This document shows, in pieces, positions 4,543-19,306 of a DNA stretch of 21,174 bases. The notes beneath the pieces are model-generated. The model made no database searches, was not told the DNA's origin, and saw nothing but the letters and a program-made list of their open reading frames with translations. Origin of the DNA: a virus; IMG/VR virus record IMGVR_UViG_3300010430_000525, positions 1 to 21,174 of that record; one strand, given 5' to 3'. The position numbers and the translations under genes are program-made. Within the stretch, counting starts at the first letter, position 1, and every line of letters begins with the position of its first letter.

Positions 4543-5898
4543 CTATAGTTTTTCCATCGCGACCCAGCGCCAGATGTCGGCGGTGTTCGTGTCGTTGAAG
4601 GTGAGGTAGCGGCGGCCGTCGAACGTGATGAGCTCGTCGAAGGCGTCCAGGCCGCGGCCGTGGACTTGCGAGTAGCCGTCGATGAGGCCGATCACTTCCA
4701 CGTCGCCGGGCTGGTTCTCGACGATGAAGCACTGGGCCGGGAAGGCGAGCCGGTTCCCTGGTCCCATCGGGGCCGGGGCCTGGGGGAAGAGCGTCGAGGC
4801 CGACGTCTGGAACCACTCGGGGTCGGACATCGCGCCGGCCCCTGGGTTCGGGTTGAGACTCCAGGGATCCATCGCGGAGGCCGGGGCCAGGGATCCAGCC
4901 GGGACCGGGGCGTCGTTGAAGCTCCAGTTCGAGCCGATCCCGAACCCGGAGATCGGCCAGAGCTGGCTCGCCTGGTCCTCCGCGCCGGAGTTGTTCGTGA
5001 GCGCGATCCCCTCCCAGGCCGGGCTCGAGTTGTCCCGATACTGGACCGGGCCGAGCTGGCCGGCGATCGTGTACGAGTTGAGGTTGACGATCCCCGAGTT
5101 CGTCGTCGACCGGCTCGTGTTGAAGGCCTGGATCGAGCGCGACTGGCCGAAGCAAACGGCCGGGAAGGGATAGTTGAGGTCCGAGTTCGTGAACGGGACG
5201 AAGAGGCCGAGGCCGCCGTATTGCTTGAAGGTCCCGTCCGTGACCATGAAGTTGAGCCGGCGCTCCGTGACCGAGGCGTAGAGGATCGGATCCTCGGACG
5301 GGCAGCCCATGAACATCTCGTTGTCGGGCGGCGCTCCTGGCTGGGTGAGGAAGGTGTTCCCGTTGTCGAACGAGGTCGCCGTCATGAGCTGGAAGCCGTC
5401 GTTCGCGCCCGAGAGGATCATGTCGAGCCCGATCGTCGGGGCGTTCGTCGCCTTGACGCTCGAGGCGATCCACTCGTAGTCGGTCGTGAGGTCGACGAAG
5501 GTGTCCCGGTCGGCCGTCCACTGGGCCGCCTGGGTCGTGAGATTGACCTGGAGGAGATCGTCGCCGATCCCCGAGGCGTTCGTCGTGGCGACGTCGGTCG
5601 TCCCAGGGAGCGACGTGTAGATCCCGCAGGAGGTGATCTTGACCTCGGTGACGTCGTCGCCGGCGATCGCAACCACGACCCCGCGGGCGACGATCGAGAC
5701 GCCGTTGATCGAGACCGCGGTCCCGCCGACGATGTCGAAGGTCTCGCCGACGACGTAGCCCGAGCCGTTGTTCGCGCCGACCGAGTCGAGCGAGAGGACG
5801 TTCGGATTCTCGACGAGCTCCCGGAGGACCTCCCCGACTACGATCCGGCCGTCGGCGGTGACGCCGTCGGCTATTAGAGCTTGTTCGAGCCAGGACAT
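4543..5898 (-). CDS. Putative tail-associated virion structural protein with Gly-rich beta module (unknown)
   Basis: A 451-aa protein whose ATG follows the tape measure stop by one base; GGGAG lies about 6-8 nt upstream inside the end of that gene. Residues 1-40 are helical-looking (LEQALIADGV, VVGEVLRELVEN). Residues about 44-120 form a Gly-rich module, GSGYVVGETFDIVGGT, then DDVTEVKITSCGIYTSLPG and GIGDDLLQVNLTT. A related module occurs in the 230-aa gene at 16839-17531. The remainder (FVPFTNSDLNYPFPAVCFGQ, RRLNFMVTDGTFKQYGGLG, C-terminal FDGRRYLTFNDTN) resembles structural proteins seen next to the 410-aa type partner. The Gly-rich module is common in phage fibre and decoration proteins. 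Role in the tail is inferred from position between tape measure and distal tail gene. Confidence 0.52.
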   Translation of the reverse strand: MSWLEQALIADGVTADGRIVVGEVLRELVENPNVLSLDSVGANNGSGYVVGETFDIVGGTAVSINGVSIVARGVVVAIAGDDVTEVKITSCGIYTSLPGTTDVATTNASGIGDDLLQVNLTTQAAQWTADRDTFVDLTTDYEWIASSVKATNAPTIGLDMILSGANDGFQLMTATSFDNGNTFLTQPGAPPDNEMFMGCPSEDPILYASVTERRLNFMVTDGTFKQYGGLGLFVPFTNSDLNYPFPAVCFGQSRSIQAFNTSRSTTNSGIVNLNSYTIAGQLGPVQYRDNSSPAWEGIALTNNSGAEDQASQLWPISGFGIGSNWSFNDAPVPAGSLAPASAMDPWSLNPNPGAGAMSDPEWFQTSASTLFPQAPAPMGPGNRLAFPAQCFIVENQPGDVEVIGLIDGYSQVHGRGLDAFDELITFDGRRYLTFNDTNTADIWRWVAMEKL

Positions 5899-5899
5899 C

Positions 5900-8134
5900 C
5901 TATACTCCCAGCGCGGCCCGGAACGAGGTCCGCTTCGCGCTTATTCGATTGAGGAGGACCTTGTCGCCCTCCCCGGAATTGAAGGCCCCGGTGATCTCCG
6001 AGGAGTCGATGGCGTTGACCACGTTGACGACGGGCGGAGCCTGGGCTTCTTGTGCGATGTTGACGTTCGGCGTGATCGCTCCCGCCCCTGGAGGCGTGAA
6101 GATCTCCGGACCTCGTTCGCCGACCAGGATCGGCCGGCCGCCGGATACCTGGCCGCCGGCCTGGAAGCCGCCGCCGAAGAGCCCGCCGATGAACTGGAGG
6201 AAGCCGCCAGCGCCGCCGCCACTGTTCGAGCCGAACGACTGGAGGATCTGGAAGATCTCCGCCGCCAGGGCGTCCGCCGCGAGTTGTTGGAGGATCTTCG
6301 CGAACCGGAGAGGGAGCTCGTCCAGGCCTTCGGCCAGGGGATCCGCCAGGAGGCCCGAGAGCTCGCGCTGGGCCGATGCTCCGACCGACTCGAAGAAGCC
6401 CGTGAGGGTGTCCTCCTGTTTGCGGAGCTTCTCGGTCTCGTTGAGGAGCTCCTCGGTGAGCGCGCCGATCGCTTCGGCTTGTTCGACCGTAGCGCCGGCG
6501 GCCAGGGCTCGGAGCTCGGCGTTGATCCCGAGCGCCTCGTTGTTCGCGCCGAGGAGAAGGATCTCGTCCTCGAGGGCCTTGATCTGGTCGTCGAAGGACT
6601 CCTTGAGCTTGCCGGCTTCGATCTCCTCGTTGAAGGCCCGGATCGACTCGAGGGCGTCGCCGCCCAGGAGGAGGAAGGCCTCGCGGAGTTCCATGACTTC
6701 CTCGGTCGGGGCGAGCTCGCCGAAGATCTGCTCGGCCGCGGCCGCCAGGGCGATCTCGTCCTTGAAGATGGCGATCGCGCCCGCGGCTTCGTCGCCGAGT
6801 TCCTTCTGGAGCCGGAGGACCTCTTCCTGGTTCTCGAGGTTCGAGATGAAGTCGAGGACGGCGTCCGAGGCCTCCTGGAAATCCTCGGCCGAGACGGGCG
6901 GCTCGATGATTCCGCCGCCGCCTTCCGCGCCGCCGCCGCCGCCAGCCGCGAAGGCGATGTCGCGAGAGCCCGCGCTCCAGAGCTCGACGAGGGCCTCGAT
7001 CGTCTCCGAGGTCTCGCCGACGAGCGTCTCCTTGAGCTGGGTGAAGTTCCCGACGACGTTGTCGAACTGGCGGCGATCCAGGTCGTCGAAGATCTCGCCG
7101 GCGACGTCGAAGTTCCCGCGGAAGAATTGCTCGATCCCCGCGATCGACGCGCCGATCGTCTCGCCGACGAAGTTGAACGCCGTCGAGAGGACCGTCGTGA
7201 GGGAGGTCGCGAGGGCGTCGATGATCCGGATCGCGACCAGGGCGACGGACGTGAAGAGCACGAGCGCGCCGTTGACCTCGTCCTGGGGTTCGAGCGTCCC
7301 GGAGAGCGCCTTCCCGAGGTCGTCGATCGAGTCGGAGATGTCGACCAGGATCCCGGCCAGGCCGGCCCCGACCCCGGAGGTCTCGGAGAGCTGGCCGACG
7401 AACGAGATGAGCGAGTTGTTGATCGTCGTGAAGGCCTGGGAGATCGTGACCTCGGTGTTCGCGAATTGCTCCTCGATCCCCTCGCCGCCTTCCAGGATCG
7501 CGCGGAAGAACTCCTCCGAGGAGACCTTCCCCTCGACGACCAGGTTCCGGAGACGACCGACGGATCCGGCCGCCTCATCCAGGCCGCGGGCCGCCGCCTG
7601 GGCGAGAGGGAACGCGCCCTCGAGGATCGAGTTGAACTCCTCGGCCCGGACGACGCCGGAGGCGAACGACTGGGAGAGCTGGCGAAGAGCGCCGGCGGAT
7701 TCCGCCGCGCTGGATCCCTGGACCGCGAGCGCCTGGCCCGTGATCTCGGTGAGCTTGAAGAGCTCCTCCTGGGAGGCCCCGAGCTCGCCGGCGGCGATCG
7801 AGGCCCTCGAGTAGAGCTCGGTGACGCTCTCGAGAGGCGTCCGCGTGTCCTGGGCGATCTCGAAGAGACGGCCGGCCGCGAAGTTGAGCTCCTCCTGGGT
7901 GTCGGTGACGACGCGGAGCTGGTTCTGGAGGGTCTGGTAGGTGTTCGTGAGCTGGACGATCTCACGGATCGCCAGGGCCGCCGCGAAGGCCGTCGCGGCC
8001 TTTGCCGCCGCCTTGAACTGGCCCTGGACGTTCTTCGCCTTCGCGCCGATCCCGTCGAGGTCCTTCTTCGTTCGGGCCGCTCCTCGGCGGACCCCGGAGC
8101 CGTCCAGGACGACTCGGATGACGCGGTCGGTCAT
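5900..8134 (-). CDS. Tape measure protein
   Basis: A 744-aa protein, the longest complete one in the window. The ATG overlaps the chaperone GT stop as ATGA, with GGGAG about 9 nt upstream. The N terminus (VIRVVLDGSGVRRGAA, KDLDGIGAKAKN) and the stretch ELNFAAGRLFEIAQDTRTPL, ELYSRAS, LRQLSQSFASGVVRAEEF match the tape measure N-terminal domain (TIGR02675-like). The middle is long amphipathic helix and coiled coil (residues about 400-600), with an Ala/Gly-rich linker near residue 395. The C-terminal part is Gly-rich (FGGGFQAGGQVSGGRPILVG, ERGPEIFTPPG), a usual tape measure ending. These proteins fill the tail tube, set its length during assembly and leave it during DNA ejection. At about 1.5 angstrom per residue it would measure a tail near 110 nm. 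Position after the frameshifted chaperone genes is classic. Confidence 0.93.
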   Translation of the reverse strand: MTDRVIRVVLDGSGVRRGAARTKKDLDGIGAKAKNVQGQFKAAAKAATAFAAALAIREIVQLTNTYQTLQNQLRVVTDTQEELNFAAGRLFEIAQDTRTPLESVTELYSRASIAAGELGASQEELFKLTEITGQALAVQGSSAAESAGALRQLSQSFASGVVRAEEFNSILEGAFPLAQAAARGLDEAAGSVGRLRNLVVEGKVSSEEFFRAILEGGEGIEEQFANTEVTISQAFTTINNSLISFVGQLSETSGVGAGLAGILVDISDSIDDLGKALSGTLEPQDEVNGALVLFTSVALVAIRIIDALATSLTTVLSTAFNFVGETIGASIAGIEQFFRGNFDVAGEIFDDLDRRQFDNVVGNFTQLKETLVGETSETIEALVELWSAGSRDIAFAAGGGGGAEGGGGIIEPPVSAEDFQEASDAVLDFISNLENQEEVLRLQKELGDEAAGAIAIFKDEIALAAAAEQIFGELAPTEEVMELREAFLLLGGDALESIRAFNEEIEAGKLKESFDDQIKALEDEILLLGANNEALGINAELRALAAGATVEQAEAIGALTEELLNETEKLRKQEDTLTGFFESVGASAQRELSGLLADPLAEGLDELPLRFAKILQQLAADALAAEIFQILQSFGSNSGGGAGGFLQFIGGLFGGGFQAGGQVSGGRPILVGERGPEIFTPPGAGAITPNVNIAQEAQAPPVVNVVNAIDSSEITGAFNSGEGDKVLLNRISAKRTSFRAALGV

Positions 8135-8972
8135 GTTCCTCTACTCCCGCCGGCGAGCGCCGGCTTGTTCGCGGCTTCGGCCTTCGCCGAGGCCTGGGCG
8201 GCTTCGTCGACGCCCTTCCAGTGATCCAGGAGGACGCGGTCCGTCTTCCAGATGATCCGCTTCAAGGTGTCCGGGTCGATCTGGTAGCGGTCCGCGTATT
8301 CGACGATCTTCGTGATCGGGATCGTCCCGCGAGCGTGGACGCGCTCGGTCTGGAGATCCTGGAAGGCCTCCCAGTAGATGAAGAAGCGCGACTCGATGGC
8401 CGGCGGATCTACCAGGTGATCGGGCGGAGTAAGGCCTCGCGCCTTGTGGGCCGCGATGACTCGCTCCTGGGTCTCCGCGTCCCCGAGCCGGAGATTGTGA
8501 TCGAGGACTTCGGCTAGTTTCCCGCCGCGTCCTCTTCGTGAGCCGCTCGAAATTGCGACCACTGTCGCGCGACGCGCTGGATCCCCTCGAAGAACTTCGG
8601 GACGCGCTGGCATAGCGTCGTGAAGTTCTTCTCGCGGGTCTCGGCCTTGAGGTTCGAGTGGAAGCGGAGCTTCGGATCCTTCGCGTCCTGGGGATCCGTC
8701 CAGGTGATCTTCGTGACGACGGTCCGCCCGTAGACCTTCCAGAGAAGCGCCCGGTCGGTGTCCTCGTCGATCTCGTTGATCTCGCCGGACTTCAAGAGCC
8801 CGACGGAGAGCTCCGCCAATTCGCGACGATAGTCGGCATTGAGGACGGGATCCGCCGGACGGACCCAGACCCTCGCGATCACTTTCCCGCCGAACTCGAT
8901 CTCGCACTCTCGCCCCTCGCTTGCTAGTTTCTCCGATGTCTCGAAGGCCTCGTAGACTCTCACGGTCTTCAC
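8131..8972 (-). CDS. Tail assembly chaperone GT fusion made by -1 frameshift
   Basis: The first gene (stop at 8514-8516) has no independent downstream partner with a convincing start, yet the -1 frame stays open from the slippery heptamer at 8517-8523 to a TGA at 8131-8133. The shift would read through AAC into CTA and add about 128 residues (LAEVLDHN to GGSRGT), giving a product of about 280 aa. The extension has SRFFIYWEAFQDLQTERVHA and an Ala-rich C terminus. In lambda and many siphoviruses the longer GT product joins the tape measure to tail tube subunits during tail assembly, while G alone is more abundant; neither is in the mature virion. The location just before the tape measure gene, overlapping it by ATGA, fits exactly. 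The fusion is inferred from sequence. Confidence 0.85.
8472..8508 (-). promoter_or_regulatory. Frameshift-stimulating RNA stem downstream of the slippery site
   Basis: Eight nt after the heptamer, GTCCTCG (8508-8502) can pair with CGGGGAC (8485-8479) over 7 bp including one U-G wobble, with a 16-nt loop. That spacing is typical of -1 frameshift stimulators. The loop also holds TCTCCG (8494-8489), complementary to CGGAGA (8477-8472), which starts 1 nt after the stem. This could give an alternative 6-bp hairpin or a pseudoknot, although a 1-nt connector crossing a 7-bp stem is sterically doubtful. Confidence 0.6.
8514..8972 (-). CDS. Tail assembly chaperone G (unshifted product)
   Basis: A 152-aa protein if begun at GTG 8972. 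A second in-frame GTG at 8963 has AGGAG 8 nt upstream, a far better spacing, so the true protein may be 149 aa starting MRVYEAF. The sequence shows a small beta-rich N-terminal part (CEIEFGGKVIARVWVRPADP) and a helical C terminus ending EEDAAGN, directly at the slippery site; chaperones of this family commonly end in a similar E-x-x-x-GN motif. It lies between the tail tube and tape measure genes, separated from the tube gene by 29 bp that hold a small hairpin. The known role of the family is to coat or hold the tape measure and recruit tube subunits. Identification rests on position, ending motif and frameshift site. Confidence 0.82.
   Translation of the reverse strand: MKTVRVYEAFETSEKLASEGRECEIEFGGKVIARVWVRPADPVLNADYRRELAELSVGLLKSGEINEIDEDTDRALLWKVYGRTVVTKITWTDPQDAKDPKLRFHSNLKAETREKNFTTLCQRVPKFFEGIQRVARQWSQFRAAHEEDAAGN
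8517..8523 (-). promoter_or_regulatory. -1 ribosomal frameshift slippery heptamer GGGAAAC
   Basis: On the coding strand the last codons of G are GCG GCG GGA AAC TAG. The heptamer G GGA AAC fits X XXY YYZ and allows both tRNAs to re-pair in the -1 frame as GGG AAA. The stop follows at once. Lambda uses the closely related GGGAAAG at the same point of its G/T genes. Confidence 0.87.
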
Positions 8973-11809: not shown

Positions 11810-12373
11810 CTAAGCCGCCCGAACCGTGAGGCCGCCCAGGCCGCCGCCGCGGAGCCAGGGCCGGAGGAGGCGATCGGCTTCCGGGAAGGGCTGGATCGTC
11901 CGGAGCGTCGCGCCGCCCTCGAAGTATTGCGTCGACTCCTCGAGGACGTCGACCTTCTCGCGCTTGCTTCTCACGTTGCTCGACGTGATCTCGGGCGTGA
12001 TGGCGAGCTCGGTCATGAGCTCCAGGTCATCGCCGTCCGGGCCGATGATCTCGCCGGCGTAGAGGATCGTCGCGTTGAGGACGTCCTCCGGGACCTCGTC
12101 CGTCGGGAAGGCGTTCCCCGTTCGTGGATACACGGCGAGCTGGCGCGGCCAGGCGAGCTCCTGGACATCGCCCAGGGGTTCCCCGACGAAGCGCCGGCCG
12201 AAGCGGGTCTCGATGTAGTCGGTCGCGCGAACCAGGGCGGCCTCCTGGACCTCCGTCGTCGCGTCGAGCCAGGCCTGGCGACCTCGGTCCGTCTGGTAGG
12301 CGATCGAGTCGGCGGCGTCCGCGTATGAGTTCGCGCCGGCGACAATCGTCCCGTCTTCCTTCGTCAATGCCAT
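11810..12373 (-). CDS. Head-tail connector (adaptor), DnaT-like ssDNA-binding protein family
   Basis: A 187-aa protein with ATG at 12373 and GAGG about 8 nt upstream. The N terminus, MALTKEDGTIVAGANSYADA, followed by AYQTDRGRQAW, EAALVRATDYIETRFGRRF and VQELAWPRQ, closely fits the phage family usually labelled DnaT-like ssDNA-binding protein (DnaT_2). In these operons it serves as the head-tail adaptor rather than in replication. EDVLNATILYAGEI continues the helical bundle. The C-terminal part (TIQPFPEADRLLRPWLRGGG) includes the Pro-x-x-D-x-x-L-x-P-hydrophobic pattern usual for this family. It opens the connector cassette and is preceded by the unusual block of accessory structural genes. DNA binding is not supported by anything visible. 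Confidence 0.83.
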   Translation of the reverse strand: MALTKEDGTIVAGANSYADAADSIAYQTDRGRQAWLDATTEVQEAALVRATDYIETRFGRRFVGEPLGDVQELAWPRQLAVYPRTGNAFPTDEVPEDVLNATILYAGEIIGPDGDDLELMTELAITPEITSSNVRSKREKVDVLEESTQYFEGGATLRTIQPFPEADRLLRPWLRGGGLGGLTVRAA

Positions 12374-12383
12374 CTCGAGATCC

Positions 12384-12752
12384 TCATGGTGTGATCGAGT
12401 CCGCCTGGATCGTGAAGGATCCGAAGAGCGGCGTGTTCGGTCCTGGTTCCAGTTGGAGCTCGTGATAGTACGCGCCCTTGAGCGCGGCCGTGTCGGCGTT
12501 GTTGATGAGGACGTCGATCCTCCCGTTGACCAGGTCGACCGGGTCGATCTGGGTCGGGCCTCCCGTGAGCGTCTTCGAGACCAGGACGGCGGAGCCTTGC
12601 TTCTTCGCGAGCGCCCAGGTGATCTCGGTGAACGGCGTGAGATCCAGGACGGGCGAGCCGACCGAGTCCCCGTTCCGGACCGTGATCTGGAGCGCCAGGG
12701 CGTCCCCGGAGAAGTAGAGCGGCGAGAGGCCGACGTTCTGTTCTAGTGGCAT
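12384..12752 (-). CDS. Small beta-sandwich structural protein (BppU-like), putative
   Basis: A 122-aa protein with ATG at 12752 and GAGGAG 9 nt upstream. The sequence alternates short strands: YFSGDALALQITVRNGD, LDLTPFTEITWALAKKQG, RIDVLINNADTAALKGAYYH, and GSFTIQADSI. The order GD-x-l-x-l, ldlt-x-W-x-l, v-x-i-x-x-x-D-T-x-x-L-x-G-x-Y is a recurring layout in small phage proteins related to the N-terminal domain of BppU-type baseplate or fibre-anchoring proteins. It lies next to other fibre-like genes upstream of the connector cassette, so an anchoring or decoration role is possible. It might instead be a connector accessory. Function is inferred. Confidence 0.5.
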   Translation of the reverse strand: MPLEQNVGLSPLYFSGDALALQITVRNGDSVGSPVLDLTPFTEITWALAKKQGSAVLVSKTLTGGPTQIDPVDLVNGRIDVLINNADTAALKGAYYHELQLEPGPNTPLFGSFTIQADSITP

Positions 12753-12755
12753 GAT

Positions 12756-13052
12756 CTAGCACTCCTCGACCAGACCGTCGAGGGCCTGGATCGTGATGAC
12801 TTCGCCCGTGAGCGTCGTGAAGGTTGAGACCTCGCCGGCGATCGGGATCGCGTTCACGAAGCCGGCGTCGAGGAGGACCTGGGTGTTGACGACCGCGTCG
12901 AGCGTGACCTGGGTCTCGACCAGGCCATCGACGCAGATCTCCTGGCGGATGATGACGCGGAAGGACCGGCTCGAGAACGTGACCGCGCCGTGAGGGAAGA
13001 AGCTCCCGTTGTAAGCGCCAGCGCCGAGGCTGTTCGGGATCGGGCTCATCAT
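12756..13052 (-). CDS. Small hypothetical protein
   Basis: A 98-aa protein whose ATG overlaps the preceding stop (ATGA); a second Met follows at once. I do not recognise it. It is nearly all predicted strand, with Val, Thr and Ile rich segments, including the partly repeated pair VETQVTLDA and VNTQVLLDA. There are two cysteines, one mid-chain (QEICVDG) and one at the very C terminus (LVEEC). No signal peptide or membrane segment is evident. Tight coupling to the 314-aa and 122-aa genes suggests the three products work together, perhaps in a surface appendage. Confidence 0.55.
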   Translation of the reverse strand: MMSPIPNSLGAGAYNGSFFPHGAVTFSSRSFRVIIRQEICVDGLVETQVTLDAVVNTQVLLDAGFVNAIPIAGEVSTFTTLTGEVITIQALDGLVEEC

Positions 13053-13993
13053 GGCGAGATCGTCTCCCTCGCGATCATCCCGGAGCGACCGATGAAGGAC
13101 GCGACCGTCTCGTTGATCCGGACGTCCGCCTCATCGAAGAGATCGTAGCGGCGGATGATCGTCCCGCCGATGTTCCGCTCGACTCGTTGCCAGCCCAGGA
13201 CATCGTCGCCGACGAAGTCGATCTCCCGGCCGCCTTCGATGAAGCTCGAGAGCGCCAGGATCCCGGAGAGCTCGGCGTCGACCGTGTTCCCGGATCCGAG
13301 GACGAAGGTCATGATGTCCGCGACCGAGATGTCGTTGAGCGCGCCGATCGCCGCCAGGTTCAAGCCGATCCCGACCTGGGTCGCGTCGTGTTCCGCCTGG
13401 GAGGTTGCCGCGTCCATCGGGACGACCTGGGCCGCGATGGCCGCCTGGGTCGCGTCGTGTTCGGCCTGGTCGGTAGCGGCCGCGAGAGGCGTCACGGCGT
13501 TCCGTGACGAGATCGCCGCGTCCAGGTTGTCCAGGAGGGCGGCCCGGATCGTCGTGTAGCCCTGGGCCGTGAGGGCCGTCTGGACGTCCGCGATCGAGAT
13601 GTTGTTCAAGGCCGCGATCGCCGCGAGGACCGTCGCCTCGCTGGCCGAGATGTCCGCCGGCGTCGCCCTGGTCGAGACGGCGACGTCCAGGTTCGCGAGA
13701 TCCGTCGAGACGGCGATGATGTCCGCCTCGCCCGAGAAGCTCCCGAAGTAGTAGCGGTCCGAGGCCGGGACCTGGCCCGAGACGAGCGGATCCGCGTCGA
13801 CGAGGAACGTGTAGGACCTGGCGACGTCCGGGATCGTGTAGGCGAAGAGATGCTTCCCGTCCTGGGTGAGGTCCGTCATCGCGACGAAGGCCTGGACGAT
13901 CGTCCCGGTGTCGTCGGTGATCTGGATCTCCGGGTCGTCGGTGAGCCCGTTCTGGGGAACGCCGGCGGCGAAGACTGTCGCGAAGATGTCCAT
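13049..13993 (-). CDS. Repeat-containing virion structural protein, putative fibre or appendage
   Basis: A 314-aa protein starting directly after the previous stop. Residues 1-75 look like an Ig-like beta-sandwich (GLTDDPEIQITDDTGTIVQ, GKHLFAYTIPDVARSYTFLV), a pattern seen in phage structural proteins. Residues about 90-235 are helical repeats: LAAIAALNNISIADVQ recurs as LAAIGALNDISVADIM, and QAEHDATQ occurs twice 23 residues apart. The C terminus (IGGTIIRRYDLFDEADVRIN, ASFIGRSG) is a short beta domain also typical of this architecture. Phage proteins with ALNDxSxADV repeats usually form trimeric or extended rods, but that is general experience, not shown here. The gene lies in the block between capsid and connector genes. 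Confidence 0.55.
   Translation of the reverse strand: MDIFATVFAAGVPQNGLTDDPEIQITDDTGTIVQAFVAMTDLTQDGKHLFAYTIPDVARSYTFLVDADPLVSGQVPASDRYYFGSFSGEADIIAVSTDLANLDVAVSTRATPADISASEATVLAAIAALNNISIADVQTALTAQGYTTIRAALLDNLDAAISSRNAVTPLAAATDQAEHDATQAAIAAQVVPMDAATSQAEHDATQVGIGLNLAAIGALNDISVADIMTFVLGSGNTVDAELSGILALSSFIEGGREIDFVGDDVLGWQRVERNIGGTIIRRYDLFDEADVRINETVASFIGRSGMIARETISP
13375..13469 (-). repeat. Direct DNA repeat of 26 bp, offset 69 bp
   Basis: Positions 13375-13400 and 13444-13469 match at 25 of 26 bases. The offset of 69 bp equals 23 codons, so the repeat is in frame and encodes QAEHDATQ twice in the 314-aa protein. Such near-identical copies point to a fairly recent duplication of a rod-like repeat, or to gene conversion. 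Confidence 0.75.
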
Positions 13994-14194
13994 CTACTTC
14001 TCGACCTTCTCCAGGGATCCTACGATCGCCGGAAGGAGCGCGCGGGCGTATTTCATCGGGACCTCGTCGACGAGTTGCATGATCCCGACGATCGCCTGGC
14101 CCGAGATCTCGTAGGTCGCGGACGTGTCGATCGGCTGGCTCATCTTCTGGACGAGTTCGGCGTCTGGTTGTTTCAGTTCTGCGGGGTCGCTCAT
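13994..14194 (-). CDS. Small hypothetical protein
   Basis: A 66-aa protein. Its ATG overlaps the stop of the 168-aa gene (ATGA), with GGAG about 10 nt upstream, and its stop abuts the next ATG. It is not recognised. The N-terminal 20 residues are polar and Pro-containing (MSDPAELKQPDAELVQKMSQ); the rest looks like two helices, AIVGIMQLVDEVPMKYARAL and LPAIVGSLEKVEK. No membrane segment is long enough to be convincing. Coupling on both sides supports it as a real gene of the operon; it could be a small assembly factor or virion component. Confidence 0.6.
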   Translation of the reverse strand: MSDPAELKQPDAELVQKMSQPIDTSATYEISGQAIVGIMQLVDEVPMKYARALLPAIVGSLEKVEK

Positions 14195-14697
14195 GCGTCG
14201 GGGTCTCCGGTGAGTTGTTGGATCCGCTGGCGGATCTCGGCCTTGTTGCCGCGGAGGGAGTTCTTCCCCTGGCGGAGGACATCGACGACGAGCTTCCGGG
14301 TCGGCCCGGCTGGTTCGGCGGCGATGAGAATGTCGAGGCGGTCGAGCGCGTTGTTCGTCTCGTCCCGATCCCCGCGGAGCGTCATGAGCTCGGCGTGGAG
14401 GTCGACGACGTGGGTCTCGGCCATCCGGCCCAGGGTCGAGAGCGTGTCGAAGAGCTCGGCGTGGGCGACGGGGTCCGCGACGATGTTCCCGCGGAGGCTC
14501 GAGTAGGTCGGGTTGTTGATGATCCCGAGCCGATTGAACTCGGCCGCGATCGCGTCGACCCAGGCCCCGCCCTCGGTGTTGTCGATCCCGTCGATCGTCG
14601 CCTGGATCTCGTCGATGAAGCCGCCGCGCGTGAGGGCGTTGTCCGCCACGACGGCGTCGATCCCGGCCTGGTAAGCGTCGCGCGATGTCGTTGTCAT
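14191..14697 (-). CDS. Helical hypothetical protein
   Basis: A 168-aa protein with ATG at 14697 and AGGAG 9 nt upstream. It is almost entirely predicted helix, for example FIDEIQATIDGID, THVVDLHAELMTLRGDRDET and a basic C-terminal segment GKNSLRGNKAEIRQRIQQL. Asp and Ala are abundant and there is no Cys. No family is recognised. It is translated between the 710-aa fibre-like protein and a 66-aa protein with overlapping stop and start, so it belongs to the accessory virion block. A chaperone or trimerisation partner for the fibre is conceivable but not supported directly. Confidence 0.55.
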   Translation of the reverse strand: MTTTSRDAYQAGIDAVVADNALTRGGFIDEIQATIDGIDNTEGGAWVDAIAAEFNRLGIINNPTYSSLRGNIVADPVAHAELFDTLSTLGRMAETHVVDLHAELMTLRGDRDETNNALDRLDILIAAEPAGPTRKLVVDVLRQGKNSLRGNKAEIRQRIQQLTGDPDA

Positions 14698-14709
14698 GTT
14701 CGTCTTCTC

Positions 14710-16842
14710 CTATGCGAAGCGCGCCGAGACCGTGAGGACTCGATTGTTCGCGGGTAGTCCGCCCGAGGCGTTGACCGTTCCCGCGATAGTAAACCAGCCG
14801 GTGTTATCTGTGACGCTCGTGATGTCGAAGACGAGGAAGTTCGTCGCGTCTCGCTGGTCCTGGATGTAGAGCTGGTCCCCGTTCGCCAGGGCCGAGAGGA
14901 TGTTCTGGGCGTCGCCGCCGTTGTCGGTGAGCTGGTCGATGTAGAGGTTCGTGACGCTCGCCGGCGTCGCGTTGTCGTAGCGGAGCCGGCCGTTCCCAGG
15001 ATCCGCCGCGCCGGTCGACGTCGAGAACGCCCAGGGACCGGACAACAAGCCCGCGCCCGTCGAGATCGTCTCGAGGATCCGCCAGCGATCGGTCGCCGTG
15101 TCGTCCTTCCAGATCTCGACCGTGTCGCCAGGGGCGAGAACGAAGTCGAGCGCGTTCGCCCGGAGGAACCGATTCGCCGCCAGGCTCGCGCCGTCCTCAT
15201 GCGTGAGCGTGAGGTTGAACGAGCCGACGTTGACGAGCTTGATGAGGTCGCCGCCCTGGCCGAAGCCGAAGCTCGAGTCGATCCCCGTGATGTTGTAGTT
15301 GTCGTCGGAGTCCAGGAGCGCGACGCCTCGCTGGTTGTTGTTCGCGGCGAGCTGGTAGTTGTTCTGGCTGGCCGTGATCTGGGCCGGGGCGTTGCTTCCC
15401 TGGTTGATGTGGCCGTCGATTCTACCGCGACCCAGGACGCGGAGGGCCTGGGTCCTGGTAGCGCCGAAGGAGGGCATTGACTGGACGAAGAGGTTCGAGA
15501 TGTCGTCGATCGTTCCGCCGTTGAGGATGACCGCGGGCGAGTTGATCTTGAAGGCCTGGAGGTCCGAGACCGTCTGGCCGTTGACGTCGATCGAGCCGGA
15601 GGCCGTCCACAAGACGTCGGAATACTCGCCGCCGATCTGGACCTGGCGATTGTTCGGGCCGGCGAACTGGACGAACCAGTTGTTCGAGTTCGGGGTCGGG
15701 AGCGTGACGCCGAACGTGACCGCGTTGACGTTGAAGCCGATCCCGATGTCCTGCGTCCCGCCGTTGTTGTGCTGGAAGACCCACTCGTCGTTCGACGTCG
15801 GTCGCAAGTAGAGCGGGTTCGCGCCGACGCCGGCGAAGGTCGAGAAGAGGAGCGCGGCCTGGCTCGTGTTCCAGCCGAGCCAGAGATCCCCGTCGGTGAT
15901 CGCCCCGCCGAACTTGACGTAGGTGTTGTCGTTGACGTGGATGTCGCCCGCGCCGAAGTCCGAGTCGGCCCCGCCGAGATTCTGGAGGAAGTAGTTCGCG
16001 ACGTTGTTGACCAGGGCCGAGCGAACCGCGGCCCGGACGCCCGTCGTCGCGAGCGTGATCGAGTTCACGTCGAGCCCGATGTAGTTCGCGCACGTCTCCG
16101 TCCCGAGCGACTGGCCGAAGAGGACCGCCGCCGGGTTGAGCATATGGACGCCCCGGATCGTTCCGAAGTCGGCGACCGCGGTCGCGTTGTTCGTGTTCCA
16201 CAAGGGGCCGACCGTGAGGCCGTTGACGTTGTTGATCGAGAGGTCGTCGCCGGCGTTGCGGACTCGGAGGATCGGCGCGAACGAGAAGCCCCGGTAGTTC
16301 GTGACCGTGATGTTCCCCGCGCCCTGGATGTCGTAGGCCGCCTGGGCGGCGTAGAGGAAACACTGGGCCGGCGCGATCCCCGCGTTGAGGCCCCGGTAGG
16401 TCGGCCGCGCGAAGAAGAGCGTCGTGACCGCGAAGCCTGGCGCGACCGCCCAGTTGAGGGTCGAGTGGTCGTCGAGCGCCGAGAGGATGAACGTCGAGCC
16501 CGTGACCGTGATCGTGTTGACGATGTCGATCCCGGCCGTGATGATCCCGCCGGAGGCTGGGATCGTCGCCGCCCAGCGAAGCATCGCCGCGCCCGACTGG
16601 GTCGACCAGTCGAAGCTCGAGTCGATCCCCGAGCCGGCGGTGATCCGTCCGGTGTCCGCGTGAGCGGATCCTCGGAGCTCGAGCGTCTCGCCGGCGGCCG
16701 TTCCTCCGTTGAGGGTCTGGCCCAGGGCTCGGCCCGCGAGGAGCGCGTATTGAAGATGATCGTCCGCCGCGAGGCCCGTGAGCGCCGCGTGGACTCCCGA
16801 GAACTGGGTCTGGCTTGCCTGGGCTTCGACGGCTCCGGTCAT
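14710..16842 (-). CDS. Large fibre-like virion protein (putative head or side fibre)
   Basis: A 710-aa protein, ATG overlapping the upstream stop (ATGA). The N terminus carries GVHAALTGLAADDHLQYALL and GRALGQTLNGGTAAGETLEL (residues about 16-56). This is a widespread phage fibre motif (DDHxQY, then GRxxGQTLxGGTxAxxxLxL). The middle is beta-rich, Asn/Gly-rich sequence with little Lys, as in a beta-helix or trimeric shaft. Near residues 500-590, ITASQNNYQLAANNNQRGVA and DGASLAANRFLRAN, then APGDTVEIWKDDTATDRWRI, make a recurrent fibre C-terminal module. The last 110 residues (GPWAFSTSTGAADPGNGRLR, LSALANGDQLYIQDQRD) form a second common module. Such proteins bind host surfaces or decorate the capsid. 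Placement between capsid and connectors, far from the tail tip genes, favours a head-associated or neck fibre, but a tail fibre cannot be excluded. Confidence 0.68.
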   Translation of the reverse strand: MTGAVEAQASQTQFSGVHAALTGLAADDHLQYALLAGRALGQTLNGGTAAGETLELRGSAHADTGRITAGSGIDSSFDWSTQSGAAMLRWAATIPASGGIITAGIDIVNTITVTGSTFILSALDDHSTLNWAVAPGFAVTTLFFARPTYRGLNAGIAPAQCFLYAAQAAYDIQGAGNITVTNYRGFSFAPILRVRNAGDDLSINNVNGLTVGPLWNTNNATAVADFGTIRGVHMLNPAAVLFGQSLGTETCANYIGLDVNSITLATTGVRAAVRSALVNNVANYFLQNLGGADSDFGAGDIHVNDNTYVKFGGAITDGDLWLGWNTSQAALLFSTFAGVGANPLYLRPTSNDEWVFQHNNGGTQDIGIGFNVNAVTFGVTLPTPNSNNWFVQFAGPNNRQVQIGGEYSDVLWTASGSIDVNGQTVSDLQAFKINSPAVILNGGTIDDISNLFVQSMPSFGATRTQALRVLGRGRIDGHINQGSNAPAQITASQNNYQLAANNNQRGVALLDSDDNYNITGIDSSFGFGQGGDLIKLVNVGSFNLTLTHEDGASLAANRFLRANALDFVLAPGDTVEIWKDDTATDRWRILETISTGAGLLSGPWAFSTSTGAADPGNGRLRYDNATPASVTNLYIDQLTDNGGDAQNILSALANGDQLYIQDQRDATNFLVFDITSVTDNTGWFTIAGTVNASGGLPANNRVLTVSARFA

Positions 16843-17531
16843 GAGAAGGTCGCCGTCCCGATGAGGAGCCGCTTGTTGTGCGGTCCCAGGAAGTAGACCG
16901 ACAAGACGCCGGCCGAGCTCCCGACTCGTCGGAAGATGTGGAGGACCTCGTTCTTCTCGTAGTAGTGGCGGATCTCCTGGATCCCGTCCGCTCCCGTTGT
17001 CTCGGCGTTGTCATGGCCGAGCTCGGGCGGACCGAACTCCGAGAGGCTCACGTCCTGGGGCGAGAGGCCGACCGAGTGAGAGATCGCGAACCGGGCGTTC
17101 GCTGGGAGGGTCAAGTTCGACAAGCTCCCGGCGTCCTGGGCGATCGTTCCGAAGTCGTGAAGGGCGGAGAGCGTGACGTCGACCGTGAGGGCGTCGTCGC
17201 CGCCTCCCGTCTGGGCGACCGTTGCCGCTCCGACGCCAGGCGTGACCGTGTAGGCTCCCGCGATCTGGACCGCGACCTCGGTGACGACGTTCCCGACTTC
17301 CGCGACGACGTAGCCGCGGCCCTGGACGGAGAAGGTCCCGCCAGAGATGAGGAACTCGTCGCCGACGTTGTAGCCGGCCCCGCCGACGTTGACGGCGATG
17401 TCGAGGATCCGCCAGGGCGAAGGCTCGAGCCCGGCGGTGATGAACGCGCTCTCGTTCTGTTTAATCCGGCGACGCTCCCGCCGATAGAAGGCGAGCTTCG
17501 ACTGGGCGGCCGGTCCCGCCGGGAGGCTCAC
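16839..17531 (-). CDS. Putative decoration/adhesin-like protein with Gly-rich beta module
   Basis: A 230-aa protein starting at GTG 17531, with GGAG 6 nt upstream; the previous stop lies in between. Residues 1-30 are basic and helical (LAFYRRERRRIKQNESAF). Residues about 50-120 form a Gly-rich module: GAGYNVGDEFLISGGT, VVTEVAVQIAGAYTVTPG, GGGDDALTVDVTL. It parallels the module in the 451-aa tail-region protein. The C-terminal half is a beta-rich domain (FAISHSVGLSPQDVSLSEFG, VLHIFRRVGSSAGVLSVYFL). The module GxGYxxGDxxxxxGGT followed by a GxYTxxP turn is frequent in phage decoration and fibre proteins. Its stop overlaps the start of the 710-aa fibre gene, suggesting the two proteins assemble together, perhaps as adaptor and fibre. 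Function is inferred. Confidence 0.55.
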   Translation of the reverse strand: MSLPAGPAAQSKLAFYRRERRRIKQNESAFITAGLEPSPWRILDIAVNVGGAGYNVGDEFLISGGTFSVQGRGYVVAEVGNVVTEVAVQIAGAYTVTPGVGAATVAQTGGGDDALTVDVTLSALHDFGTIAQDAGSLSNLTLPANARFAISHSVGLSPQDVSLSEFGPPELGHDNAETTGADGIQEIRHYYEKNEVLHIFRRVGSSAGVLSVYFLGPHNKRLLIGTATFS

Positions 17532-17534
17532 GGC

Positions 17535-18173
17535 CTACTCCGACGCGGCGGCGGGTTCCGAAGTCACTCCGGGGCCAGTAGGGCGAGCCGTTCCTCGGCC
17601 GTTCTTGCGCGCCATCGCGGCGTCGATCGGGGCCTTGCCGGCCTGGGCGAGCATCCGCTTGAGCGCCTCGGGGCTCGAGGCCCTGGTCGCGCGGACCTCC
17701 TTCTGGCTGGCGATGTAGCCCTTGACGGCGACGGTGTGGTGATCGGAGGCCTCGAGGTGAGGGTAGAGCTCGGCGGAGAGACTCCGGAGCTCGTCCTTCT
17801 TCTCTTCGACTCCGGCCTCGAGGTCGTCGATCTCGGCCTGGGTGTCGGCCATCTTCGCGCGGATCTCGGACTTCCGCTTCTGTTCGGCGGCGTCTTCCTT
17901 GCTCGGATCCGGAGGCCTGGGCGCGTCGGCGATCGCTTGCTTCCGCCTGGCGGCGTCGGCCTTCCGCTTGTCCTTCTGGGCCTGGGTCCTCGGCTTCCGC
18001 TTCGGCGGAGCCGCGGCTTCTACCGGAGGCTCCTCCGCGGGAGGATCTGGCTCGGGGTCGACGGCTGGCGGATCCTGGGGATCGGTCGCGGCGTCGTCCG
18101 CCGGCGTCTCGGCCGGGGTTGCTTCTACCTCGAGGGCTTCCTCGAGTTCTTGCTCTTCGGTTTTCTCGGACAT
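17535..18173 (-). CDS. Hypothetical protein with acidic Pro-rich head and coiled coil
   Basis: A 212-aa protein with ATG at 18173 and AGGAG 9 nt upstream. Residues 1-55 are acidic and Pro/Ala-rich (probably disordered), followed by a basic Lys/Arg stretch (PPKRKPRTQAQKDKRKADAA), a coiled coil at about 100-135 (KMADTQAEIDDLEAGVEEKK), and a C-terminal part with APIDAAMARKNGRGTARP. I know similar S/A-P-x-D-x-A-M-x-R-x-x-x-R-G-x-x-R-P endings from unnamed phage proteins encoded after the capsid gene, but no function. It is the first gene behind the post-capsid hairpin. Low complexity and mixed charge would suit a scaffold-like or assembly factor; this is speculation. Confidence 0.55.
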   Translation of the reverse strand: MSEKTEEQELEEALEVEATPAETPADDAATDPQDPPAVDPEPDPPAEEPPVEAAAPPKRKPRTQAQKDKRKADAARRKQAIADAPRPPDPSKEDAAEQKRKSEIRAKMADTQAEIDDLEAGVEEKKDELRSLSAELYPHLEASDHHTVAVKGYIASQKEVRATRASSPEALKRMLAQAGKAPIDAAMARKNGRGTARPTGPGVTSEPAAASE

Positions 18174-18195
18174 GGGTCGGGTCTCCTGGTTGAAA

Positions 18196-18228
18196 GGGAG
18201 CCCGCCCTGGGGGAGCGGCGGGCCTCCG
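18196..18228 (-). terminator. Strong GC hairpin after the major capsid gene, terminator-like
   Basis: On the coding strand GGAGGCCCGCC (18227-18217) can pair with GGCGGGCTCC (18206-18197), a 10-bp stem with one bulged G and a 10-nt loop. It is followed by CTTTC rather than a long U run, so termination would be partial at best. It lies about 20 nt after the capsid stop in the longest gap of the window (71 bp). It may end part of the capsid transcripts or protect their 3' ends. Confidence 0.55.
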
Positions 18229-18244
18229 ACACGTTCTGGTCGAC

Positions 18245-19306
18245 TTAGAACTCAGTCGTCACCAGTCGCGCGGCCTTGATTTGTTTCCGCTCGGGGAACG
18301 TCCGCGCCCAGTTGTTGACGCCGTCGGCCGCTTCCGCGTTCGTCGGGCCGCCGTCCGGGTTCGCGACGGATCCAGCGAGCCAACGATGGCCGACTGGGTG
18401 CATGGACCACTCGATCCTCGAGAAGAGCTCCTCGCCGCCCGCGCCGTTGCCCTGGCCGGGGTAGCGTTCGATCTCGGCCGGGACTTTCGGGTTCCCGACG
18501 CCCCAGCGTGAGGCCATCGGTCCGAAGATCCAGGTGTCGAAGACGCCCGCGGCGTTCGGCATTGTGTCGTCAACGATGACGCGCCGGCCGAGGAAGGTCG
18601 GAACCGCGGCGGCGTTCGTGTTGACGGCGTCCGGGACGAAGTCGATGAGGTTGTTCTTCTGGGCCTTCGAGTAAACGATCGAGTGCATCATGACCGCGAC
18701 GAAGTCGTCCTGGGAGTCTCCCGCCGTGGTGATGGCGTCGATGAACGCCTCGGCCGAGAAGTCCGTGACGCCCGCCGTGAACGCGCCCGAGATGTCGACC
18801 GTGAGGTCGTCCTGGGCGGCGTTGTTGGTGATGCCGGCGCGCGGGTCATCGTTCGGCGTGACCTGGGCGTTGTCGGCGAAGATGCCGGTCCAGGTTGCCA
18901 CGAAGACCGCCTGGAGGCGTCGCCGCCAATAGGCCGCGACGTTCGCCGCGATCGCGTTCGAGGGATCGTCGCCGGCAAGGGCGGCCGCGAGGTCCATCGT
19001 CTGCCAGGACTGGTTCCGCGACAATCTGGTCGCGATCTCCTGGTTCGACTGGATCTTCGCCGGGACCGCGATCGTCGCCGGGTTATCACTGGCGACTCGA
19101 TCCGCGAGGATGTTCGAGTCGTCATCGTTGTCACGCCATGAGGGCGCGTTGAAAGTTGTCCCGCCGCCGGCCAGGAAGCCGTCAAGGGCCGGATCACGAA
19201 CGACGACGCCGGAGTCGATCAAGGCGGTCTTCTGTTCTGTGAGGGTCCTAACGTAGGGGGCGAAGATCTCCGGGACGACTACGTCCGCGACTCTTACTTC
19301 TGCCAT
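18245..19306 (-). CDS. Major capsid protein
   Basis: A 353-aa protein with ATG at 19306 and AAGGAG 9 nt upstream. The N-terminal half follows a well-known capsid pattern: VVVPEIFAPYVRTLTEQKTA, then LIDSGVVVRDPALDGFLAGG, NAPSWRDNDDDSNILAD, ATIAVPAKIQSNQEIATRLS, and WQTMDLAAALAGDDPSNAIA just before an amphipathic helix with YWRRRLQAVF. This SG-V, P-W-D, N-I-L, D-L-A-x-x-L-A-G-x-D-P order marks the HK97-fold coat proteins of the Mcp13-like type. The protein forms the icosahedral shell around the scaffold encoded just upstream. There is no sign of a long N-terminal delta domain, and no protease gene lies between the minor head protein and this gene, so proteolytic maturation is not suggested here. 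It is flanked by a structured 69-bp leader and a strong hairpin. Confidence 0.9.
   Translation of the reverse strand: MAEVRVADVVVPEIFAPYVRTLTEQKTALIDSGVVVRDPALDGFLAGGGTTFNAPSWRDNDDDSNILADRVASDNPATIAVPAKIQSNQEIATRLSRNQSWQTMDLAAALAGDDPSNAIAANVAAYWRRRLQAVFVATWTGIFADNAQVTPNDDPRAGITNNAAQDDLTVDISGAFTAGVTDFSAEAFIDAITTAGDSQDDFVAVMMHSIVYSKAQKNNLIDFVPDAVNTNAAAVPTFLGRRVIVDDTMPNAAGVFDTWIFGPMASRWGVGNPKVPAEIERYPGQGNGAGGEELFSRIEWSMHPVGHRWLAGSVANPDGGPTNAEAADGVNNWARTFPERKQIKAARLVTTEF

Follow-up and report, generated by a model that had tools for sequence, protein, structure and literature searches.

A six-gene cassette between capsid and adaptor genes marks a probable neck-fibre locus in a Queuovirinae-like siphovirus

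Phage host range is usually sought at the tail tip; what does a siphovirus encode in a long run of genes placed between its major capsid protein (MCP) and its head–tail connectors? The question is raised by a 21,174-base virus record (IMGVR_UViG_3300010430_000525, positions 1 to 21,174; hereafter the window), in which eight open reading frames (ORFs) separate MCP from the head–tail adaptor gene Ad1. In our reading the virus is a Queuovirinae-like siphovirus and the block is probably a modular locus for adhesins, more precisely for neck (head-vertex) fibres. Sequence comparison with relatives shows it to consist of two backbone genes and then, directly upstream of Ad1, a six-gene cassette with products of 710, 168, 66, 314, 98 and 122 amino acids (aa). 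Head or neck fibres and whiskers are in themselves a kind of structure already known.

The recognised genes of the window all lie on the minus strand, in the order head morphogenesis, scaffold, MCP, eight-gene block, Ad1, Hc1, neck, terminator, tail tube, tape measure and tail-tip genes. The head is of the Queuovirinae, SPP1-like type, with an MCP about 44–55% identical to those of Nipunavirus, Seuratvirus, Nonagvirus and relatives, a phrog_206 scaffold and a phrog_477 Ad1. MCP (353 aa; 18245–19306; phrog_247, E = 9.5e-92), which bounds the block upstream, also matches PDB 4an5 (E = 3e-51), the SPP1 coat protein (PMC6266253). The eight ORFs encode, in transcription order, 212, 230, 710, 168, 66, 314, 98 and 122 aa, and they are as tightly coupled as the initial annotation had described, all in place with 0–12 bp gaps or 4-bp overlaps. 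A codon-based gene caller likewise picked all eight, and a Shine–Dalgarno-like purine-rich stretch precedes most of their starts, least clearly that of the 710-aa gene. Their conservation in IMG/VR loci, where the 212-, 230-, 710-, 168-, 314-, 98- and 122-aa proteins have relatives, marks the ORFs as real genes, the 66-aa family being defined by position and weak alignment. Most of the eight proteins have no or weak family matches in PHROGs and Pfam.

The length of this stretch is unusual: in 16 of the 19 cultured relatives examined, among 723 phage records with an MCP match, the MCP–Ad1 interval is about 0.4–1.94 kb (taken from annotation for MiCath, BDU-MI-1, SETP3, CA8 and Vid5, with the Ad1 of MiCath and SETP3 uncertain). 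The longer intervals, in R7M (4.16 kb), Vid5 (3.96 kb) and ALK (4.7 kb), each hold a large adhesin-like gene. The IMG/VR set comprised 39 loci with an MCP relative and 14 with a relative of the 710-aa protein, both MCP and Ad1 being present in 16 and 3, respectively; 22 interval rows, less three repeat contigs, gave 19 loci reaching both genes, several of them near-identical pairs or triplets, and the interval was 5,050–7,272 bp in all 19. Like the Alteromonas phage R7M, a member of the Queuovirinae (MCP 50%, Ad1 28% identical), the window combines a Queuovirinae-type head with a large adhesin-like gene in the MCP–Ad1 interval; the R7M layout is MCP, 158 aa, 1154 aa (ORF28, with PKD/Ig domains) and Ad1. 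Transmission electron microscopy of R7M is reported to show whiskers at the head–tail interface, and ORF28 came second in virion mass spectrometry (PMC8265664).

The eight genes are not all new or of equal standing. Relatives of the 212-aa protein (17535–18173) and the 230-aa protein (16839–17531) stand beside nearly every related capsid gene, and because they recur whatever cassette follows, the cassette is one of six genes, not eight; the two are backbone genes and the other six exchangeable. The 212-aa protein, acidic and Pro-rich, then basic and coiled-coil-like, has relatives in most IMG/VR loci with MCP, and hhalign links its C-terminal part to the gp12 proteins of PaMx25-like phages (94.8%). 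The 230-aa family, found in nearly all loci that reach it, takes two forms in the family alignment, one of 230 aa and one of about 143 aa without the inserted domain. Its longer form is predicted to have a basic N-terminal helix, an inserted beta domain (about residues 36–120) and an immunoglobulin (Ig)-like C-terminal domain; the AlphaFold2 (AF2) model (pLDDT 60) places the helix at 7–32 and the Ig-like domain at 124–230 (best Z 5.5, root-mean-square deviation (rmsd) 3.3, 79 residues aligned). The protein may correspond to PaMx25 gp13, with which it aligns weakly but in register (hhalign 5%); its profile has no match in PDB, and its sequence none in 50,697 phage records. The inserted domain is also related to the N-terminal part of a 451-aa protein encoded after the tape measure (4543–5898; 42–47% in relatives).

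Close relatives replace the six-gene cassette with unrelated fibre-like systems in mosaic fashion, as judged from predicted gene content in 14 loci (those of lower GC content read as plain ORFs). Type A, comprising the window, L002, L016, L017, L035, L048 and L051, begins with the fibre, followed as a rule by a relative of the 168-aa protein (in L002 by a different gene, of 240 aa), in most loci by a small gene, then by a 314-aa relative and often the 98-aa gene, and ends with a BppU-like gene adjoining Ad1. Type B, comprising L005, L008, L010, L012, L018, L039 and in part L031, has small genes including a Gp80 relative, a repeat protein of 512–1320 aa and a BppU-like gene of about 111–127 aa, and L021 fits neither (type C). 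The BppU-like proteins of types A and B align with a common GD motif, although hhalign between the two gives 63%; in L048 and L051 the gene order is that of type A and the BppU protein is B-like. The type-B Gp80 proteins carry Pfam PF23140 in both members scanned (E = 2e-14 to 2e-15); within the group, other members share 54–93% identity with the L018 query, and their profile matches PDB 8jou (E = 1.2e-5, ten chains). All seven type-B large proteins tested show a 20-residue periodicity, and the large repeat protein is a candidate rope; that of L018 has no solved relative in PDB. The Gp80 domain is absent from all eight proteins of the window block (Pfam, E up to 1). A Gp80 relative also lies, with a 546-aa protein, between the neck and major tail protein genes of another siphovirus (L074, MW202864; 1243–3323), once more within the connector module, and a sulfotransferase gene (PF13469, E = 1.2e-16) lies inside the L016 cassette, between its 168- and 314-aa relatives (14317–15123).

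Comparison of flanking proteins indicates that Ad1 (187 aa; 11810–12373; phrog_477, E = 1.4e-38) changes with cassette type, whereas head and tail genes do not. Its identity is 65.4% between loci of the same cassette type and 44.1% between those of different type (permutation p = 0.0028, n = 11); for the other flanking genes (hm, scaffold, MCP, g212, Hc1, neck, TrP and MTP) p is 0.14–0.80 (n = 4–11). After correction for head-gene divergence by regression, the true labels come top among 330 arrangements and never fall below second place in a leave-one-out test. The clearest case, L005, is 97% identical to the window in MCP, 92% in scaffold, 82% in Hc1 and 45% in Ad1, and across loci with different cassettes MCP remains 84–98% identical to that of the window.

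The largest gene of the window's own cassette (14710–16842) encodes the putative 710-aa fibre. Behind a short N-terminus, its body (residues 42–591) is 43–70% identical to fibre-like proteins of other phages, and its C-terminal fibre domain (about 598–705), matched over roughly residues 600–706, is 29–36% identical to proteins in 17 phage records, many annotated as fibre, fibritin or spike; the sequence has no meaningful match in PDB. The gene that follows (14191–14697) encodes the 168-aa protein, probably a chaperone or adaptor for the fibre, which has no match in the 50,697 phage records. Its relatives are directly preceded by a 710-family fibre in 20 of 20 loci (18 contigs, two loci repeating the contigs of others), the match in L016, L017, L035 and their repeats running through the C-terminal-type domain only. 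The two genes travel as a pair among unrelated phages. In L041, a virus with an SU10-type adaptor, a relative of the fibre body and one of the 168-aa protein again follow an MCP candidate (phrog_4523, E = 5e-9); in L083 the fibre, 168-aa relative, a 66-like gene and a 314-like protein come in succession, and in L084 the fibre, 168-aa relative and 66-like gene are followed by a protease–capsid fusion. The 66-aa protein itself (13994–14194) is matched, by position and a weak alignment, in L002, L048, L051, L082, L083 and L084. A fibre-body relative of 43% identity also follows a Mu-type portal gene (PF06074) in L053 (9800–11731), one more unrelated backbone.

The 314-aa protein (13049–13993) has an N-terminal domain (about 1–90), a repeat-rich middle and a conserved C-terminus; relatives of 51–79% identity occur in L002, L016 and L017, and its N-domain alone in L048–L051 and L083. 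It has no match in the 50,697 phage records and no meaningful one in PDB. A 139-aa protein of L082 was considered as a further relative, but the comparison was unconvincing. The 98-aa protein (12756–13052) is 34–85% identical to its relatives in L002, L016, L017 and L035. The 122-aa protein (12384–12752; phrog_1084, E = 1.7e-4), a predicted BppU-N/Ig-like beta-sandwich and candidate collar or anchor, is 35% identical (E = 1e-8) to a protein of the haloarchaeal virus HCTV-16 annotated 'phage BppU N-terminal domain', with no BppU match in Pfam at E up to 1. Its profile hits in PDB only short stretches of Photorhabdus lectins (E = 0.001–0.003), none of which passes alone. Its AF2 model (pLDDT 69, pTM 0.60) is nearly all beta; the top rows of a structure search (best Z 5.6, rmsd 3.4, 92 residues aligned) are Ig-like, a likeness common to many unrelated Ig domains, and a T5 tail-tip chain is tied at Z 4.9. 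Searches of PDB and BFVD with the 122- and 230-aa models gave generic Ig-like or unnamed phage matches, and the lack of a better match is no evidence for a new fold; both models are too weak for naming a family. The presence of the 710-aa C-terminal domain and body in phage fibres, the HCTV-16 match and the large R7M gene at the same place agree with the initial annotation in placing a fibre or adhesin apparatus within the head–connector module.

Three indirect lines lead us to favour a neck-fibre locus, namely the whiskers of R7M, the Gp80 relatives of type-B cassettes and the way in which Ad1 follows cassette type; from these we infer that the fibres sit at the neck of the virion. The 710-aa protein would form a trimeric fibre, which the 168-aa protein would help to fold or attach, and small Ig-like proteins (122 aa, perhaps also the N-domain of the 314-aa protein) would build a collar round the Ad1 ring that bears the fibres as neck whiskers. 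Initial contact with the host surface or capsule would be made by the whiskers, final recognition and DNA delivery would fall to a separate tail-tip module, and exchange of the cassette would alter early attachment with head and tail untouched. Several points weigh against this proposal. For this virus the case is built from genes. Ad1 could vary with the cassette because the two are linked within a single recombined block, not because their products touch, and L031 departs from the pattern by pairing a type-B fibre with an Ad1 of 57–59% identity. The AF2 models of the 122- and 230-aa proteins are weak and give generic Ig folds only. The fibre body is also found on other N-termini in L046 and L053; that of L046, in which Pfam found nothing, looks like the N-terminus of a podovirus tail fibre, and because the same-family body stands there on a different, tail-fibre-like N-terminus, it is apparently not head-specific in itself. 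The identification of R7M ORF28 as a whisker is a suggestion of its authors (PMC8265664), and the protein has no clear kinship with the 710-aa one (E = 0.002, with 27.6% identity across some 120 aa). Finally, the Vid5 paper speaks of central tail fibres and nowhere uses the word whisker (PMC6266253).

Could these be ordinary tail fibres, attached near the tail tip and merely encoded in the head–connector module? Gene position is no proof of virion position, the 710-aa C-terminal domain is shared with proteins annotated as tail fibre or baseplate fibre connector, and the N-terminus of L046 recalls a tail fibre. We nevertheless think this unlikely: separate tail-tip genes (BR0599 family and others) follow the tape measure, the cassette lies outside that module, between MCP and Ad1, it is Ad1 and not the tail genes that changes with the cassette, and the R7M whiskers are at the head–tail interface. 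Head fibres or decoration might instead cover the capsid surface or sit at every vertex, after the manner of 7-7-1 or phi29. This would suit genes that directly follow MCP and a 230-aa family combining a basic N-terminal helix with an Ig-like domain, a layout seen in decoration proteins. The capsid fibres of 7-7-1 are described as reaching flagella (PMC12796354). However, the cassette adjoins Ad1 and Ad1 changes with it, while MCP stays at 84–98% identity to that of the window, and we give this arrangement a slightly smaller chance still. The initial idea of an apparatus assembled with the capsid, not the tail tip, stands as to its head–connector locus, but the neck is a likelier site than the whole capsid surface. 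The very mosaic content, including the L016 sulfotransferase, might even suggest a general cargo or moron hot-spot of tolerated recombination and no structural role. This is very improbable, as almost every locus inspected has a fibre-like or repeat-rich product as its largest, types A and B end, just before Ad1, in a gene for a small BppU-like protein, and the R7M and Vid5 products were reported in virions (PMC8265664, PMC6266253).

The neck-fibre reading admits a bolder, more tentative extension, which we put forward as possible but rather less than an even bet. The site between MCP and Ad1 may be a dedicated docking slot for exchangeable neck whiskers, where two or more fibre machines without homology to each other (a trimeric fibre and its partner proteins, and a repeat-built rope with GP4-type fibre-I subunits) use one collar/adaptor interface, each with a matching adaptor, and the fibre with the 168-aa protein (plus the 66-aa and Ig proteins) may be a self-contained portable head-or-neck module, passed among siphovirus and podovirus backbones that are otherwise unrelated. 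In searches of the openly licensed literature we found no account of such an interchangeable site serving two or more unrelated fibre machines, or of a portable module of fibre and 168-aa protein. Should complete sets of adhesins be exchanged at the neck, receptor prediction based on tail genes alone would overlook them, and the many genes without names that environmental phages carry in the MCP–Ad1 interval would gain a testable role. The co-exchange of Ad1 suggests the docking site of such fibres, and the 710-family fibre with its 168-aa partner offers a two-gene marker for the portable module.

Some features around the block deserve mention. The gap between MCP and the 212-aa gene (18174–18244) holds a GC-rich inverted repeat, GCCCGCC/GGCGGGC, read directly from the sequence; it is a candidate attenuator after MCP and possibly tunes MCP against downstream expression. 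A promoter and terminator scan was uninformative and did not list this repeat as a terminator; a terminator is annotated just after MCP in Siara and one gene later in PaMx25. The Ad1 family is named 'putative DnaT-like ssDNA binding protein' by Pfam (PF20557) and Ad1 by PHROGs, and the Pfam name looks misleading. Before the tape measure, overlapping ORFs (8131–8562 and 8514–8972) have the look of a tail-chaperone pair with a possible frameshift. A prophage and host search of genome contigs matched 33 stretches, none of which was confirmed.

Among known systems, R7M differs from the window in having one 1154-aa gene rather than a six-gene cassette. Pantoea phage Vid5 encodes an 885-aa depolymerase-like gp10 just before the adaptor; the protein is reported in virions, and its description gives it a lyase domain and an N-terminus like that of the P22 tailspike (PMC6266253). 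Vibrio phage ALK also resembles the window, with large adhesin-like genes of 345 and 757 aa between MCP and adaptor; unlike the window, neither Vid5 nor ALK has 168-, 314- or 122-aa partners in its gene listing. The podophage GP4 has a relative of its fibre I (gp80, PDB 8JOU) at the MCP–Ad1 locus of type-B cassettes, not in the window. GP4 fibre I reportedly consists of gp80 dimers carried on a rope protein, which make up five chain-like fibres at the tail vertex of the capsid. A precedent comes from phage DEV, whose 12-fold adaptor is proposed to be ringed by a collar of 15 fibre N-termini, 'like in the podophage GP4' (PMC10925440). The collar genes of Milano (gp13, all-beta) and 7-7-1 (gp118) are numbered next to the neck-1 genes (gp14 and gp119), as the 122-aa gene adjoins Ad1; both are myophages, the likeness is one of gene position, and the Milano collar, as its paper describes it, has no protruding fibres, unlike the neck proposed here. 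Two further systems are likened by description. LSH1 gp34–36 encodes payload, fibril and Ig-like protein together, with a model running from Ig protein through fibril to adhesin (PMC13243795), although that module lies downstream of the lysis module. The neck passage structure of lactococcal 936 phages, which infect Gram-positive hosts, is likewise a variable neck adhesin, described as carrying carbohydrate-binding modules (PMC6669499).

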